Below are positions 1,282 to 22,287 of a stretch of DNA of 25,126 bases, one piece after another. The stretch covers positions 1 through 25,126 of IMG/VR virus record IMGVR_UViG_3300005511_000853. One strand, 5' to 3'. Position 1 is the first letter of the stretch; each line of letters begins with the position of its first letter. The notes under the pieces are model-generated. The model did not search any database and was not told the DNA's origin. It saw only the letters and a list, made by a program, of their open reading frames with translations. Both the position numbers and the translations under genes were made by a program. This DNA is from a virus.

Positions 1282-1509
1282 TCAGCCGGCGTCGCGCCGT
1301 CGCTCGGCGGCCAGTGAGGCGCGGCGGCCGCCGGTCGCGTGGGGCAGGCGGTTGACCTGCATCTCGACACGGCCGTTGCGGATTCGAATCTTGAACACAT
1401 GGACCAAGCCGCAGTCGCAACATGCAATCTTGCAGCGGCGGTTGGAGCGGCCTTCCTGGAACAGCCACCATTCGCCGTCATGCACCTGCTCGTACTTTGA
1501 GCGGCTCAT
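1282..1509 (-). CDS. Small Cys-rich protein of unknown function
   Basis: This 75-residue protein is not recognised. Residues 27-33 carry a cluster of three cysteines (CKIACCDCG), which could bind a metal. The rest is basic and ends in an Arg-rich tail. Its ATG overlaps the stop of the upstream leftward gene in an ATGA arrangement (1506-1509), which suggests translational coupling in a two-gene leftward operon. An ORF in another frame (1254-1481) covers the same bases, but it lacks the ATGA link and its Arg/Ala/Pro-rich translation looks like out-of-frame GC-rich sequence. The gene ends close to the convergent DUF445 gene, at the putative left edge of the prophage. Confidence 0.55.
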   Translation of the reverse strand: MSRSKYEQVHDGEWWLFQEGRSNRRCKIACCDCGLVHVFKIRIRNGRVEMQVNRLPHATGGRRASLAAERRRDAG

Positions 1510-1847
1510 TGGGAGACCTTGCGCTCGCGCCAGCGCAGCATCCGCCAGGCCTCGAGATGCGCCTCCGCTTCCATGCGCGCCCGGTCGCGCAAGGTGAACC
1601 AGGCGGCATCCGGTCTTCGCACCGTGTGTCGCCGGGTCATCGCACAGAGCACGCGGAACGATCGCTTGGCGAGTCCGAACTCCTTTGCTGCACGAAAACG
1701 CAGGCGCTGCGGCTCGGTCATATGGGACATCATTCGCGCATCGCGCTCGCGCTGTTCCTCCGCGGCGATCGCCGCCAGCACCTCCGCCGGGATCGGGCCG
1801 TCATACTTGAGCTCGGCGTCGCGGCGCAGGCTGAGTGCGGTCTGCAT
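1506..1847 (-). CDS. Small charged helical protein, unknown, first gene of leftward operon
   Basis: This 113-residue, Arg/Glu/Ala-rich, probably all-helical protein is not recognised. I chose the ATG at 1847 over an upstream in-frame start at 1889 because it is preceded by a good ribosome-binding site (AGGGAGA, about five bases upstream), while the longer start has none. The gene lies downstream of the repressor on the same strand. A 17-bp dyad stands 46 bases ahead of its start, so it is probably expressed from its own repressor-controlled leftward promoter. Position and size fit an early regulator or accessory gene of a temperate phage, but no helix-turn-helix is evident and I assign no function. 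Confidence 0.55.
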   Translation of the reverse strand: MQTALSLRRDAELKYDGPIPAEVLAAIAAEEQRERDARMMSHMTEPQRLRFRAAKEFGLAKRSFRVLCAMTRRHTVRRPDAAWFTLRDRARMEAEAHLEAWRMLRWRERKVSQ

Positions 1848-1892
1848 GCAATCTCCCTGAGGCGATGGATTGTTCAAGGAGACTAGCACGGA

Positions 1893-2716: not shown

Positions 2717-3100
2717 ATGTTCATGACCGAACGCCAGTCCCCTCCCGCCGCTGCACTCCCTCCCTCGGCGGCGGAGCCTGCGGCCGGCATCGCCTCGATC
2801 CCCAACGAGGCCCCCTCGATGCCGGCCGCACCTTTTATCGAAGCCTCCACCGTGGATCCGATTCCACCAGGCGTCCGGCAATGGGCGATCGGTCCGAAGC
2901 AATGCCGCTGGATCCTCGCCGACGAGGCTGCCGGCGCCGAGGCCCTGATGTGCGGCACGCCCGTCGTGGGGCATCGCCCGTTCTGCGCTGAGCATTGTGC
3001 ACGCACCTACATGCCGCGGGTGGCGGAGGAGGGGGAAGCCAAGGAATCCGAAGAAGAAGCGATCGCGGAACACAATCCGAAACAGAAGGAGGCAGAATGA
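2717..3100 (+). CDS. GcrA-like zinc-binding protein lacking the N-terminal HTH
   Basis: This 127-residue protein has a disordered Pro/Ala-rich N-terminus (1-50), a compact middle domain (about 52-100) and an acidic tail. The middle domain has QCRWILAD, MCGTPVVGHRPFC and AEHCARTYMP, with a putative metal set at C63, C79, C90 and H93. This matches the C-terminal part of GcrA, the alphaproteobacterial cell-cycle regulator that works with sigma70 and GANTC methylation. The N-terminal DNA-binding helix-turn-helix of classical GcrA is absent. Start choice is between ATG 2717 and ATG 2723; neither has a clear ribosome-binding site. It is the first gene of the rightward operon, and its stop overlaps the start of a small winged-helix gene. 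The family call is by motif recall, not by search. Confidence 0.68.
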   Translation: MFMTERQSPPAAALPPSAAEPAAGIASIPNEAPSMPAAPFIEASTVDPIPPGVRQWAIGPKQCRWILADEAAGAEALMCGTPVVGHRPFCAEHCARTYMPRVAEEGEAKESEEEAIAEHNPKQKEAE

Positions 3101-3330
3101 TTCCGGACATGGCCCCAACGAAAGCCGAGCGCACCCGGTGTGCGATCCTCGAGCTGTTGGCCAAGGGACCCGCGCTCACTGCAGACGCGCTGGCCGATCG
3201 GCTCGATCTTTCGATTCTTTATGTCCGGCCGCGCGTCTCGGAACTGGTGAAGCAATCGCGGATCGTCGCCAGCGGAGATCGCGGCATGAATGCCAGCGGC
3301 AAGTTCGCCCGCAAATGGAGGACGGCCTAG
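3097..3330 (+). CDS. Small winged-helix DNA-binding protein
   Basis: This 77-residue protein is almost entirely one winged helix-turn-helix: helix 1 at about 9-21 (AERTRCAILELLAKG), the core HTH at 25-50 (TADALADRLDLSILYVRPRVSELV), and a wing at 52-65. It resembles MarR/ArsR-type or FaeA-like domains in fold but I recognise no specific family. Its ATG overlaps the stop of the GcrA-like gene (ATGA, 3097-3100) and is preceded by a strong ribosome-binding site (AGAAGGAGG). Because the upstream protein lacks a DNA-binding domain, the two may act together or replace a single GcrA; that is inference. Confidence 0.65.
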   Translation: MIPDMAPTKAERTRCAILELLAKGPALTADALADRLDLSILYVRPRVSELVKQSRIVASGDRGMNASGKFARKWRTA

Positions 3331-3558
3331 ATGGGTCGCAAGGCTTCAGTGGCCTCGGATCGTCTCGATCCGCTGCGGCCGCAATTCCGTGCCCGGACTT
3401 TCGTCGATGCCGGCGGTAAGCGCCGTTTCGGCATCAGCCTCGCCATGAATGGCAGCAAGTTCGTCGGCTCGGTGCTGATGCGCAGCGACAACGGCGCCGA
3501 TGCCGGCGGCGTTGCGCAGCTTCTGGAATCCATGGCGGCCTTCGTCCGGCGCGGGTGA
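3331..3558 (+). CDS. Small protein of unknown function
   Basis: This 75-residue protein is not recognised. It begins at the ATG directly after the TAG stop of the winged-helix gene, which suggests coupled translation in the rightward operon. The N-terminus is basic (MGRKASVASDRLDPLRPQFRA) and the middle looks like beta strands (FGISLAMNGSKFVGSVLM), followed by a short helix. There is no membrane segment or cysteine. Its position just ahead of the terminase genes gives no firm clue to its role. Confidence 0.55.
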   Translation: MGRKASVASDRLDPLRPQFRARTFVDAGGKRRFGISLAMNGSKFVGSVLMRSDNGADAGGVAQLLESMAAFVRRG

Positions 3559-3823: not shown

Positions 3824-5207
3824 AGTTTCGACCGGCCATGTGCCGCGGCCGCAACAGCGCCTGCTGCATGCGGCACCCGGCCGCTTCAAGGTGCTGGTCA
3901 CGCATCGGCGCTTCGGCAAGACCGTCTTCGCAGTCAACGAACTGATCTCCGGCGCGCGGCGCTGCACGCTGCGGCAGCCGCGCTTCGCCTATCTGGCGCC
4001 CTTCCACATCCAGGCGAAGGACGTGGCCTGGTCCTACTTGAAGCATTACACGGCGAAGATCCCAGACGTCGCCGTCAACGAGACCGAGCTTTGGGTCGAG
4101 CTGCCGCCGCGGCTGGAGCATGGCAGCGGTTCCGGCGGCGCGCGCATTCGTCTCTATGGCGCCGACAATGCGGACCGGCTGCGCGGTCTCTATTTCGACG
4201 GCGTGGTGCTGGACGAATACGCGCAGATGCATCCGCGCGTCTGGGCGGAAGTGGTGCGTCCCGCGCTTGCCGACCGGCAAGGCTGGGCGCTCTTCATCGG
4301 CACGCCGATGGGCCGCAACGGCTTCTGCGATCTCTTCGAAGGCGCCCGCGATGGCTTCCGCGATGCCGACGGTGCCCGCCGGCGCGATCCCGACTGGGCA
4401 AGCTTCATGTTCAAGGCCTCTGAGACCAGCATCATACCCGCGCCGGAGCTCGAAGCCGCGCAGCGGGCGATGACGCCGGACCAGTATGCGCAGGAGTTCG
4501 AATGTTCCTTCGACGCTGCGATTCCGGGTGCCTACTATGCGCAGATTCTCGCCGATGCGGAGCGGCTCGGCCGCATCCGTCCCTTCGCCTACGAACCGGC
4601 GCTGCCGGTGCACACCGGTTGGGACCTCGGCATCGGCGACGCGACCAGCATCTGGTTCGCGCAGGTGGTGCACGGCGAGCCGCGGCTCATTGATTATTAT
4701 GAGGCTTCCGGCGTCGGGCTTGAGCATTATGTGGCGCAGCTCCGCGCCGGCCATCGCGCGCAGTGGATCTACGGTCAGCACTTCTTCCCGCACGATCTCC
4801 GCGTCAAGGAACTGGGGTCAGGCCTCAGCCGCGTCGATGTTCTGCGCGGCTTCGGTCTTTCGCCGACCGTGCTGCCCGCCGCGAGTGTCGATGACGGCAT
4901 CAGCCAGGCGCGGTTCGTGCTTCGCAAGTGCTGGTTCAACGCCGAGCGCTGTGGCACCGGGCTGAAACTGCTGCGCCAGTACCGCTCCGCCTGGGACGAC
5001 AAGCGTCAGGTGCTGAAGCCGGTGCCGCTCCACGACTTCACCTCGCATTGCGCCGATGCGTTTCGGTATCTGTGCATCGGGCTCGGACGGCAGCTGATCG
5101 ACCGGCAGCCGCTGGTTGATCCGGCACTCTCGGGCACCGCGCGCGATGCGCGGCGGCCGCGGCTGGCGGCCGGGGCACCGCGCGGGGGAAAGCCCCATGG
5201 TTGGTGA
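3804..5207 (+). CDS. terL: Phage terminase large subunit
   Basis: This 467-residue protein is the ATPase/nuclease motor that packages phage DNA into proheads. The adenine-binding/Walker A region is at residues 33-40 (THRRFGKT). Walker B with the catalytic carboxylate is VVLDEY (134-139). A coupling-type motif follows (FIGTPMGRNGF). The C-terminal RNase H-like nuclease begins near residue 268 (HTGWDLGIGDATSIWF), with a conserved Asp, and closes with HCADAFRYL. Length fits the terminase 6 type. ATGs at 3804, 3807 and 3813 are all possible starts; I use the first. It overlaps the preceding small gene and ends before a 168-base AT-richer gap holding a probable promoter. Confidence 0.93.
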   Translation: MMAMQVKVSTGHVPRPQQRLLHAAPGRFKVLVTHRRFGKTVFAVNELISGARRCTLRQPRFAYLAPFHIQAKDVAWSYLKHYTAKIPDVAVNETELWVELPPRLEHGSGSGGARIRLYGADNADRLRGLYFDGVVLDEYAQMHPRVWAEVVRPALADRQGWALFIGTPMGRNGFCDLFEGARDGFRDADGARRRDPDWASFMFKASETSIIPAPELEAAQRAMTPDQYAQEFECSFDAAIPGAYYAQILADAERLGRIRPFAYEPALPVHTGWDLGIGDATSIWFAQVVHGEPRLIDYYEASGVGLEHYVAQLRAGHRAQWIYGQHFFPHDLRVKELGSGLSRVDVLRGFGLSPTVLPAASVDDGISQARFVLRKCWFNAERCGTGLKLLRQYRSAWDDKRQVLKPVPLHDFTSHCADAFRYLCIGLGRQLIDRQPLVDPALSGTARDARRPRLAAGAPRGGKPHGW

Positions 5208-5249
5208 GAAAATATCACTATTGTGTGTGTTCCACTCTTCGGGTATATT
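5206..5249 (+). promoter_or_regulatory. CACTAT element copy 1 and candidate promoter
   Basis: AGAAAATAT then CACTATTGTGT (starting 5206) resembles the element at 13253-13270 (AGAAAACACACTATAGTGT) with one base inserted. From CACTAT onward, 13 of 16 bases agree. Overlapping its end is a sigma70-like pair, TTGTGT (5221-5226) and TATATT (5244-5249), spaced by 17 bases. The -10 is good and the -35 is weak. It lies between terL and the secreted-protein gene at 5376. The rest of the gap to 5375 shows only short, unconvincing reading frames. Confidence 0.45.
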
Positions 5250-5375
5250 AGAGAAAGTTCAGGGGGTGAGATCGACGAAGTTGAAAATGACGATGATGGT
5301 CGTTCTCGATGTCCATCGCGTCGTTCGCCTGGGACAGACGGGAAATTGAGATGAGCACGAGCGAGGGAGAGACCG

Positions 5376-5720
5376 ATGAGGACGACGATTGCGGCGGTGC
5401 TGCTGGTGCTGTCGAGCGCGGCAGCGACAGCGGAAGCGACCAAGGCAGATTGGGATCGACTGGCTGAACCGGTCGTTGCGAAGTTCGGCAGCTGTGCGTG
5501 GACCGAGGTTGACCGCGCATGGAACACGACCGCACCAGCGGCGGACATAGCGGGCGCCGCCGTAGCGGCGTGCAAGGACAAGCTGGAGCCGCTGCGCGAG
5601 ATCTTGGCGAAGGATCCGTTCGGCGCGAGTAACGAAGAGATCACGGCTACGCTGGAGCAAATCAAAGGTGAAGTGCTCGATGCAGCACAAACCGATATCG
5701 TGAAGCGACGGAAGGAGTAG
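5376..5720 (+). CDS. Small secreted protein of unknown function, cargo gene
   Basis: This 114-residue protein has a clear signal peptide: basic MRTT, a hydrophobic core (IAAVLLVLSSAAA) and a likely signal peptidase site around TAEA (about residue 20). The mature part is helical, with two cysteines (about residues 40 and 66) that could form a periplasmic disulfide, and a charged C-terminus (KRRKE). I recognise no family. A good ribosome-binding site (GAGGGAGAG) precedes the ATG. A secreted protein is out of place between terL and head-assembly genes, and it has its own promoter candidate upstream, so I read it as a cargo (moron) gene. Confidence 0.65.
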   Translation: MRTTIAAVLLVLSSAAATAEATKADWDRLAEPVVAKFGSCAWTEVDRAWNTTAPAADIAGAAVAACKDKLEPLREILAKDPFGASNEEITATLEQIKGEVLDAAQTDIVKRRKE

Positions 5721-5722
5721 CA

Positions 5723-6391
5723 ATGTCCGGCTACAACACAAGCGGCAAAGAGCCGAAAAACGGCGGTTACGGCGGCAACAAGGACAAGAAAGCTAGCGGC
5801 GGTGGCGCCGGCACACAGGCGCTCGCCTCGGGCTCTGGGTTTCGCAATTACGCCAAGCCCGGCGAGGATGCCATGTCGCAGGCCCAGGCTGCTCGCCCCA
5901 GCGGCATGACCGCTCCCGGCAAGCAAACAGAAGGCAGCGGCGGCACCACCAAGCCATCCTACGTCACCCCCATGGATCAGCCGGCGCCTCCGGGCGCAAC
6001 GCCCTACGACGAGGGCGCCACGCCGTACGGCGTCGCTTCAACGGTCTTTGGCGGCATCAGCAACGCTATGAGGCGCGCGTTCACTCAGGGCTTCACCGGT
6101 AAGGACCCGGACGCCGACGAGATGGGAACGCAGACCGGGTGGTCGGCGGACCGCACAAAGGGCGGAACTTTCAATTCCAACGATCCCCGTGGCGCGGATG
6201 CCGGTCTACTTGATGACGAGCGTGAGATCGCGGGGCGTCCATTCCGCGCAGACAGTACGGACGAGGCCGACGATCCGGTCAGCGAAACCCCAGGCGCCTC
6301 CGCGTCCGGTGACATCTACTCCGACGTGATGCTGAAGGATCGGCGCAAGCCGACCACCACTCTGAAACAAATGCTGGAGTCCATGCTTTGA
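5723..6391 (+). CDS. Disordered Gly/Pro-rich phage protein, unknown
   Basis: This 222-residue protein starts two bases after the previous stop (TAGCA ATG). It is dominated by Gly, Ser, Pro, Thr, Asp and Lys in low-complexity runs and looks intrinsically disordered for most of its length. A short hydrophobic helix lies near the middle (GVASTVFGGISNAMRRAFTQ, about 104-123). The C-terminus has DVMLKDRRKPTTTLKQMLE. I recognise no family. Its position ahead of the connector genes suggests a minor virion or assembly component, but that is only context. Its last bases overlap the start of the next gene. Confidence 0.6.
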   Translation: MSGYNTSGKEPKNGGYGGNKDKKASGGGAGTQALASGSGFRNYAKPGEDAMSQAQAARPSGMTAPGKQTEGSGGTTKPSYVTPMDQPAPPGATPYDEGATPYGVASTVFGGISNAMRRAFTQGFTGKDPDADEMGTQTGWSADRTKGGTFNSNDPRGADAGLLDDEREIAGRPFRADSTDEADDPVSETPGASASGDIYSDVMLKDRRKPTTTLKQMLESML

Positions 6392-11955: not shown

Positions 11956-13149
11956 CTAACGCTCGGGCAGAACCGGCGTCTCACCGAAGGGGCGGTTGAT
12001 CACGGAAAGCGCTTCGCGTGCGGTGAAGAGGCGGTTGTAGCGCTGGTCGGTCGGAGCGGCGAGAATGCCGGCTTCGACCAGTTGGTCGACGGCGCGCCCG
12101 GCTGCATTGAAGGAGACCTTGAGCAGCGCAGCCAGGCGCGGGATCGTCAAAACAGGGTAGTGGGGCAGGAGGTCGATGGCATGGACAGCCGCCGAGCCGG
12201 CGCGGAACTTGCGGCGGGTGCGCCAAAGTCCCGCCAGCGCTTGAAGCGCCGCTCGGGTCGTCAGCACCTCGTCCACTGTTCCGGTGATGGCGCGTGCGAT
12301 GAAGCCGACCGCTTCCGCCGAGTCGAGCTGTTGCTGTGCGGCCTTGAGCGCCGCCATGTAGGGAGGCTTATGCGCCGCGATGTAGGGCGCGAGATAGAGC
12401 GGCGTGCGGTTCTCGGCGGCCATCATCAGCGGCAAAAGCAATCGGCCGACGCGGCCGTTGCCGTCGCGGAACGGGTGCACCGCTTCGAAATGGGCATGGC
12501 CGATTGCCATGCGGGTGATCAGGCTTTGCGTCATCGCCTGTATTCCTTCGCAGCGGAGATAGCCAATGCTCTCGGCGAATGCCGCCGCGATGCCGTCCGG
12601 CGGCGTCGGGTCATAGATGGAATAGGCGATGTCGCGCCCGCCGCCGATCCAGACGACATTGCGCCGCAACGCGCCGGGTTCATCGGCATAGGCCTTGTCG
12701 CCCGCCATGACTGCGCGATGGAGGCTTGTGACGAGATCCTCGGTGAACAATGCGTGATGTTCGGCGCCCGCGCGCGGCAGCAGCCCATCGAGGGCGGTCG
12801 CGTAATCGCGCACCTGGATCGCGGCTTCGGATGCGGCGCCGTCCGCGGTCTCTTCGACGGCCAGCAATTCATCGAGCGTGCTGTTGGTGCCGTCGATCGC
12901 GGAACTCGAGACCGCTTCTTGCCGTGTCAGGATGCGGCTGATGAGGTAGGGATCCTTGAGCTCCGCCGCCAACGTGTCGATGCGGGCCATTGCTTCGACG
13001 GCGCGGGCGTGCTGCTGCAGAATCTCCGGCGGCAGAGCGACGCTCTCCTCCGGTGGCGGCAACGGCAGCACGCCGTAATGCGCGTCATAGGGTGCCGGCA
13101 AGCGCCGCAGCTGCTTCCGAACGGTCGGCGAAAGCTCCTCTCGGCGCAT
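11956..13149 (-). CDS. fic: Fic family protein (putative AMP transferase) with C-terminal winged helix
   Basis: This 397-residue protein has the three-part layout of class II Fic proteins. The N-terminal Fic_N region carries the inhibitory helix motif at residues 82-87 as SSAIDG, where the usual inhibitory Glu is Asp. The Fic core has the complete catalytic motif HPFRDGNGRVGR from H225, expected to move AMP from ATP onto a target hydroxyl. The C-terminus has a winged helix (about 330-385, with LTIPRLAALLKVSFNAAGRA). I use ATG 13149, preceded by TTAGGAA; ATG 13185 and TTG 13215 are also open. An imperfect dyad at 13190-13215 lies upstream, so self-regulation through the winged helix is plausible. 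It runs against the phage operon and is probably cargo. No separate antitoxin is seen. Confidence 0.9.
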   Translation of the reverse strand: MRREELSPTVRKQLRRLPAPYDAHYGVLPLPPPEESVALPPEILQQHARAVEAMARIDTLAAELKDPYLISRILTRQEAVSSSAIDGTNSTLDELLAVEETADGAASEAAIQVRDYATALDGLLPRAGAEHHALFTEDLVTSLHRAVMAGDKAYADEPGALRRNVVWIGGGRDIAYSIYDPTPPDGIAAAFAESIGYLRCEGIQAMTQSLITRMAIGHAHFEAVHPFRDGNGRVGRLLLPLMMAAENRTPLYLAPYIAAHKPPYMAALKAAQQQLDSAEAVGFIARAITGTVDEVLTTRAALQALAGLWRTRRKFRAGSAAVHAIDLLPHYPVLTIPRLAALLKVSFNAAGRAVDQLVEAGILAAPTDQRYNRLFTAREALSVINRPFGETPVLPER

Positions 13150-13189
13150 GTTCCTAACCTTCAATTTGGAGCCGGATTTCAGCATAGAA

Positions 13190-13215
13190 TTGAACGTTAT
13201 GCAGTTTAACGTCAA
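13190..13215. promoter_or_regulatory. Imperfect inverted repeat upstream of fic
   Basis: TTGAACGTTA and TAACGTCAA face each other with a short centre; the arms differ by one inserted base. The dyad lies 41 bases upstream of the chosen fic ATG, where an operator would be expected, and between fic and the rightward promoter at 13240. The winged helix in Fic is a candidate ligand. I cannot exclude chance. Confidence 0.35.
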
Positions 13216-13239
13216 TTTTAAGCTGCAAGCGTCTGGCGC

Positions 13240-13283
13240 TTTACATCATCTAGAAAACACACTATAGTGTATCTTGTTGGATC
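13240..13283 (+). promoter_or_regulatory. Late promoter candidate P2 with repeated element, upstream of capsid gene
   Basis: TTTACA (13240-13245, five of six) and TATAGT (13263-13268, five of six) are 17 bases apart, a good sigma70-type promoter. The -10 is inside a perfect 12-bp palindrome, ACACTATAGTGT (13259-13270). From 13257 to 13283 the sequence matches 22261-22287 at 22 of 27 positions, including the shared end TTGGATC. It points towards the capsid gene, 209 bases on. I infer that it drives capsid and tail genes past the inverted cargo block. Confidence 0.65.
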
Positions 13284-22243: not shown

Positions 22244-22287
22244 TTGCTTTAAGCTAAAACACACACTATAATATATCGAATTGGATC
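22244..22287 (+). promoter_or_regulatory. Late promoter candidate P3 with repeated element, upstream of tail fibre
   Basis: TTGCTT (22244-22249) and a perfect TATAAT (22267-22272) are separated by 17 bases. The stretch 22261-22287 is the second full copy of the element at 13257-13283 (22 of 27 bases, from ACACACTATA to TTGGATC). Over the longer span 22250-22287 the match is 29 of 38. It points to the fibre gene 80 bases downstream and lies behind the leftward cargo gene, the same geometry as P2 behind fic. Confidence 0.68.

Follow-up and report, generated by a model that had tools for sequence, protein, structure and literature searches.

The first two rightward genes of the window (the whole stretch of 25,126 nucleotides that was analysed) encode two small proteins: one whose family matches support its identification as a homologue of the sigma-contacting half of GcrA, with the DNA-binding half absent, and one that is a lone winged helix. 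The best-supported reading of this pair would be that it redirects host RNA polymerase, and we favour, at a probability of about 40%, a split sigma70 cofactor over readings in which the pair serves as a decoy, a repressor or an antitermination system or contains a relic. In the proposed mechanism, a single operon under a CI-repressed early promoter would encode both proteins, and a conserved hairpin would hold the start codon of the sigma-interacting domain (SID). The SID would dock on the principal sigma factor of the host, at region 2, and the winged helix would supply DNA recognition. The pair would then bring host RNA polymerase to promoters of the element itself or stabilise it there; candidates are the early promoter and three dyad promoters (near 5215, 13250 and 22254). 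Both the cooperation of the SID with the winged helix and an activating rather than repressing effect are presumed in this mechanism.

The window is a 25 kb virus record in which a rightward cluster of podovirus-type structural genes (for terminase, head-tail connector, capsid, tail proteins, internal virion protein and transglycosylase) follows a CI-like repressor. The pair is known from five elements, namely the window, L002, L003, L011 and L133, which have in common the order CI, SID, winged helix, 75-aa ORF, small terminase and large terminase (terS-terL). L133 is the genome of Rhodospirillaceae bacterium R-7, the only named genome with the pair. The features at the left end of the window are as follows:

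1-1257: gene for a DUF445 protein, the first gene of the window
1282-1889, (-) strand: two small genes, conserved in L002, L003 and L133
1894-1908: fourth operator-like dyad, an exact match
1949-2647, (-) strand: CI-like repressor with HTH and S24 peptidase domain, assigned by family matches
2633-2647, 2659-2673 and 2691-2705: three CI-operator-like dyads across the early promoter
2681-2709, (+) strand: predicted early rightward promoter, TTGACC (2681-2686), 17 bp, TAAAAG (2704-2709)
about 2716-2717, (+) strand: predicted transcription start
2745-2774, (+) strand: leader hairpin 1, 9 bp stem, invariant in the five elements
2779-2830, (+) strand: leader hairpin 2, 13 bp outer and 6 bp inner stem
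2819-3100, (+) strand: SID gene, probable coding part of 93 aa; the open frame back to ATG 2717 would give 127 aa
3097-3330, (+) strand: lone winged-helix gene, 77 aa, with an ATGA overlap with the SID gene
3331-3558, (+) strand: third operon gene, 75 aa, kept in all five elements

An earlier note on this DNA had placed the pair first in a repressor-controlled rightward operon, and this placement held up: the CI-like S24 repressor, the operator-like dyads and the promoter are all in position, and the TTGACN-17-TAAAAG layout is present in each of the five elements. Dyads of the form TTGCGA..TCGCAA gave 8 strand matches against 1.8 expected, and because they adjoin the CI gene we infer that CI binds them. 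The two small leftward genes have the exact CI-type operator match at 1894-1908 beside them. The third operon protein found no family match in profile searches. The ATGA overlap between the two genes, also described in the note, stands for the window, L002, L003 and L011 and fails for R-7, where a small indel removes the SID stop codon so that the SID frame extends over the winged-helix gene and continues to 5478.

The element (window 1260-25126; R-7 contig C1 at about 191.5-214.3 kb, L146-L148) has full head, tail and lysis genes, and no integrase or replication gene was found among its scanned proteins (window 1260-25126). It could be a GTA-like, domesticated element. The DUF445 gene adjoins it in both the window and R-7, where the two copies are 85% identical; DUF445 was not found next to the related terminases of R-7 relatives, and the related terminase is single copy in 14 of the 18 closest of them. 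A gene for a Fic/DOC-family protein (window 11956-13215, minus strand) is inserted on the opposite strand directly before the capsid gene.

The identification of the first protein, P0001, rests on profile, sequence and fold searches, the first of which the earlier note had called for. P0001 matched Pfam GcrA (PF07750) with 24.8 bits (E 3.3e-5), just under the curated cut-off of 26.9, and NCBIfam sig70cofacGcrA with 24.9 bits, far under the equivalog cut-off of 280. GcrA was its sole meaningful family match in Pfam and NCBIfam, and its top PDB sequence match was 5yix_B, the GcrA SID-sigma2 complex (E 0.029). PF07750 was matched independently by all five pair members (best 7.8e-6). When translation is taken from 2819, the alignment is confined to a C-terminal stretch of 61 positions in the GcrA model (89-149 of 155), and the N-terminal GcrA HTH is missing, in agreement with the description in the note of a GcrA-like C-terminal domain standing alone. 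Because the HTH is missing and the curated scores are not reached, the first protein is not GcrA in the strict sense and falls outside full-length GcrA.

The cysteines and histidine that the note had singled out as a zinc site are kept in relatives. In an alignment of 31 SIDs, drawn from the five elements, the GcrAs of related genomes, lone bacterial SIDs and isolated phages, six columns and no others are invariant: C63, W65, C79, G80, C90 and H93 (numbering from 2717). All five SIDs carry the C-x-W ... C-G ... C-x2-H pattern of the GcrA SID and, given this CCCH pattern, probably bind zinc. The WPxGDP loop of GcrA is lost, with WI-x-A-D or similar in its place, and identity to GcrA SIDs is about 20-25%. 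The predicted SID model has a mean pLDDT of 73, with core blocks at 87-91. Foldseek with this model returned three PDB chains only, 5yix_B, 7ye1_G and 7ye2_G, all of them GcrA (for 5yix_B, E 0.06, probability 0.98 and TM 0.73 by target). The model was built on a 25-sequence alignment that included GcrA sequences, and for this reason the fold search confirms the GcrA homology but is no independent proof of it.

GcrA binds sigma2 with its SID and promotes the formation of open complexes (PMC7403470); in the structure of GcrA with RNA polymerase, it contacts sigma2 and binds DNA downstream of the -35 (PMC12340889). The SID of the pair would likewise bind sigma70 region 2. Its scores below the curated cut-offs and its lost WPxGDP loop count against the split cofactor, and they could also be signs of a SID that is a relic or has been repurposed, its sigma contact gone. 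The loss of the SID stop codon in R-7 fits a relic or repurposed SID as well, as does a dN/dS of 0.22-0.47, which denotes purifying selection weaker than on terL or CI. Yet that selection is still purifying, the six invariant residues are kept and the position of the gene is constant in five elements, and we regard a relic as the least probable of the readings considered here.

A SID without a DNA-binding part could also act by itself. As a decoy, it would occupy sigma70 region 2, displace host GcrA and dampen GcrA-dependent cell-cycle promoters, and the winged helix would have a separate job. Such a free domain would naturally compete, and interference with host GcrA is possible because R-7 also encodes its own full-length GcrA, a protein available to compete with. 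The SID gene, however, always lies beside the gene of a DNA-binder, to which it is translationally linked in four of the five elements, and the surface of the SID has diverged from host GcrA; we consider a decoy possible but doubtful. The link to the methylation-dependent cell cycle that the note had raised finds no support, since the domain that reads methylated DNA is missing and GANTC is absent around the early promoter in three of the five elements (the window, L002 and L133; L003 and L011 have one each).

With P0001 as the query, no SID relatives were found in isolated phages and none was confirmed in viral contigs, where the family alignment recovered only the known elements. Most viral SIDs are of the usual kind: 60 of the 70 SID ORFs in viral contigs have a GcrA HTH, as judged with a profile built from few sequences, and the GcrAs in the four annotated records of isolated phages that were examined are full length, proteins of 169-235 aa with sequence preceding the SID. 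The other 10 ORFs are a mixture. L262 and L281 are fragments at contig edges, L254, L263 and L290 are apparently lone SIDs, and others are long or carry an HTH; among these last, L272 and L292 retain a fuller match to the GcrA model in Pfam. The mixture also includes L302 (1051-1749), where an HTH unlike that of GcrA, with weak Xre/HTH_23 matches, is fused to a GcrA SID. In viral contigs, lone SIDs, like fusions of a SID to another HTH, are a minority, in a scan that used the WPxGDP pattern and would therefore miss SIDs as diverged as that of the window. The lone SID gene of L290 (1498-1806) overlaps the next gene (1784-2068), whose product looks HTH-like by eye and had no Pfam match.

Lone SIDs also occur in three other genomes among the relatives of R-7. 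In L141, a sigma70-family gene with regions 2, 3 and 4 (4910-5743) overlaps the gene of a 74-aa lone SID (5740-5964) by ATGA, an apparent case of a sigma factor with its own SID partner. The lone SIDs at L140 5911-6234 and L142 5768-6034 (minus strand), likewise from R-7 relatives, have no obvious phage neighbours. Together, L302, L141 and the lone SIDs support the view of the SID as a sigma-contact module that has been re-paired with other partners. Polymerase redirection is favoured by the fusion of a SID to a non-GcrA HTH in L302, the overlap of sigma70-family and SID genes in L141 and a dyad common to promoters of the structural cluster.

The second protein, P0002, is a lone winged helix, as the note had proposed. 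Its AlphaFold model is confident (pLDDT 84) and has the H-E-H-H-E-E order of the winged-helix fold, resembling winged helices of the TFE/MarR/ArsR type without a specific partner. P0002 matches PHROG 1123 with 45 bits and HTH_24 above the Pfam cut-off, and a dN/dS of 0.20-0.34 indicates purifying selection. A diverged GcrA HTH was considered and rejected (hhalign probability 1.2, against a GcrA profile of only 4 sequences). Among 143 R-7 relatives, the winged helix was found in R-7 itself and, weakly, in one other genome. No SID adjoins a relative of the winged helix in another genome or the phage proteins like that relative, and no relatives of the winged helix were found in isolated phages. 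That the winged helix occurs without a SID in other phages and in bacteria, and lone SIDs without this winged helix, weighs against the split cofactor.

Several known systems resemble the pair in part. Caulobacter crescentus GcrA (PF07750; 5YIX, 7YE1, 7YE2) shares the SID with its CCCH, W and G positions and the predicted fold, but the GcrA HTH is in neither protein of the pair, the WPxGDP loop is gone and DNA binding apparently lies on a separate, unrelated winged helix. Full-length phage GcrAs (phiCbK group, PMC3556154; Atu_ph08, PMC6630229) are likewise phage-coded and carry a GcrA SID, whereas in the window the SID stands alone. The likeness to AsiA and MotA of T4 (PMC6755090) is one of architecture only, a small sigma-binding protein and a separate DNA-binder, both phage-coded; AsiA remodels sigma region 4, the region on which the phage sigma regulators covered by PMC7403470 act, whereas the SID of the window is predicted to act on region 2. 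GafY and GafZ of the Caulobacter GTA (PMC11150451, PMC9632790) are two small regulators that, under a repressor, work together on a phage-like structural cluster and scattered promoters in an alphaproteobacterium; they differ in that GafZ, whose HTH is sigma-like, serves as an antiterminator, and GafY binds RpoD.

The note had placed the gene pair at 2717-3330. Both genes are there, and the start of the first is probably not 2717 but the ATG at 2819 (GTG in L011, ATG in the other four elements). We place it there because the stretch 2717-2818 evolves like a structured RNA, with hairpins burying the Shine-Dalgarno sequence and the start codon. Hairpin 2 holds the Shine-Dalgarno GAGG (2807-2810) and ATG 2819, both base-paired in the predicted folds of all five elements. 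Codon positions 1 and 2 of 2717-2818 change more than position 3, and for most pairs of elements the silent sites of the leader change about 2-3 times less than those of terL (pS 0.15-0.25 versus about 0.45). Variable columns make up 5 of 56 in the stems and 29 of 68 in unpaired positions (Fisher p 3e-5), and the leader folds far better than its shuffles (z -5.6 and -5.0). Covariation was weak, with one compensatory pair in five sequences, a level reached by 85 of 500 shuffles, and was rejected as proof of a leader RNA; for this reason the case for the RNA rests on stem conservation, folding energy and silent-site suppression. The frame from 2717 is open in all five elements, and a leaderless start at that codon, at the predicted transcription start, is possible.

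Rfam gave no match in the window, and a 16-base pattern from the leader found chance GC-rich sequences in viral contigs among the matches listed. In 61 related genomes the leader scored at most 27.9 bits, against 131 bits for R-7, and in more distant elements at most about 20 bits. The strong hairpins that immediately follow the promoter of a long cluster read in one direction might suggest a quite different control, in which the SID, with or without the winged helix, modifies the polymerase near the promoter and lets it read on past the leader hairpins and along the long cluster in the manner of GafYZ or lambda Q. A pair of small regulators does antiterminate the Caulobacter GTA cluster (PMC11150451). 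Against this, hairpin 2 was not flagged by the terminator scan and its U-tract is not conserved (CTCCTTCTTC in L133), on which grounds it was rejected as an intrinsic terminator, and the ribosome site is buried in five of five folds, which suggests translational control. Antitermination or leader control of this kind is therefore nearly as improbable as a relic.

The candidate targets of the split cofactor beyond the early promoter, the last two of which the note had pointed to at 13240 and 22244, are the following:

5208-5251 (approximate), (+) strand: candidate dyad promoter, CACTATTGTG over the -35 (TTGTGT-17-TATATT); possible target
13229-13275 (approximate), (+) strand: candidate dyad promoter before the capsid gene, TTTACA-17-TATAGT, CACTATAGTG over the -10; possible target
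22244-22280 (approximate), (+) strand: candidate dyad promoter before the 22344-24029 gene, TTGCTT-17-TATAAT, CACTATAATA over the -10; possible target

These three have in common the dyad CACTATAGTG or a variant of it. Across the window, the related elements and R-7, a promoter-like pair with 17-18 bp spacing involves the dyad at 13 of 14 sites, the exception being the L005 site, which failed the promoter scan. The dyad lies over the -35 at six sites, in the spacer at one (L229) and over the -10 at the others. In R-7 the motif RCACACWATAGTG gave 11 strand matches (up to one mismatch) versus 1 for the control. Its frequency in 20 related genomes is at about the control level, so that the enrichment rests on one genome. 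The dyad ACACWATAGTGT lies over the -10 or the -35 near 5215, 13250 and 22254 in the window, and in R-7 it is found at C1:195540, C1:201706, C12:471909, C12:692137, C12:28821, C12:120078 and C20:291352. Sites outside the R-7 element include a distant copy of the internal virion protein gene and three DUF2280 paralogues (367-406 aa) at separate chromosomal loci, each behind a dyad promoter TTGTGT-17-TATACT:

L231 2866-3987, (-) strand: R-7 DUF2280 paralogue
L232 2935-4038, (-) strand: R-7 DUF2280 paralogue
L233 2732-3952, (-) strand: R-7 DUF2280 paralogue

The scattered dyads of R-7 look like a dispersed regulon, and in the split-cofactor reading the winged helix would be the reader of the dyad. 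The enrichment of the motif in R-7, a genome that has the pair, speaks for the split cofactor. For this reading, it is a difficulty that the dyad covers the -10 at some promoters and the -35 at others, and that the motif is enriched in one genome. Such a variable position relative to the promoter is a mark of a polymerase-blocking operator and agrees with repression no less than with activation. Repression is a frequent role of small winged helices that lack effector domains, and besides CI the winged helix is the sole DNA-binding protein recognised among the early genes. It might accordingly be a second, Cro-like repressor acting on the ACACWATAGTGT dyads over the late-promoter -10 or -35, with the SID working independently. 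The motif of R-7, however, occurs at host loci too and might be the site of a different regulator found only in that genome; on this evidence a Cro-like role is a shade more doubtful than a decoy.

The split cofactor remains our preferred reading. Besides the SID modules of L302 and L141, it draws on sequence matches confined to the C-terminal part of GcrA, the six invariant residues, a fold search that retrieved GcrA alone, the confident winged helix, the constant gene order in five elements and the purifying selection on both proteins. A wider scheme may be built on it, in which a switch that appropriates sigma region 2, consisting of two proteins and a leader RNA hiding the start codon, controls both an integrase-less GTA-like element and phage-derived genes scattered in the host through ACACWATAGTGT promoters; taken as a whole this scheme is unlikely, though less so than antitermination. 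If the pair does work as a split cofactor, it would show that GcrA can be taken apart into a portable sigma clamp and a DNA reader that can be exchanged, and the pair would provide a compact system for testing transcription activation by sigma2-binding factors. It may also be one way in which phage-like elements exploit or block the cell cycle of alphaproteobacteria.
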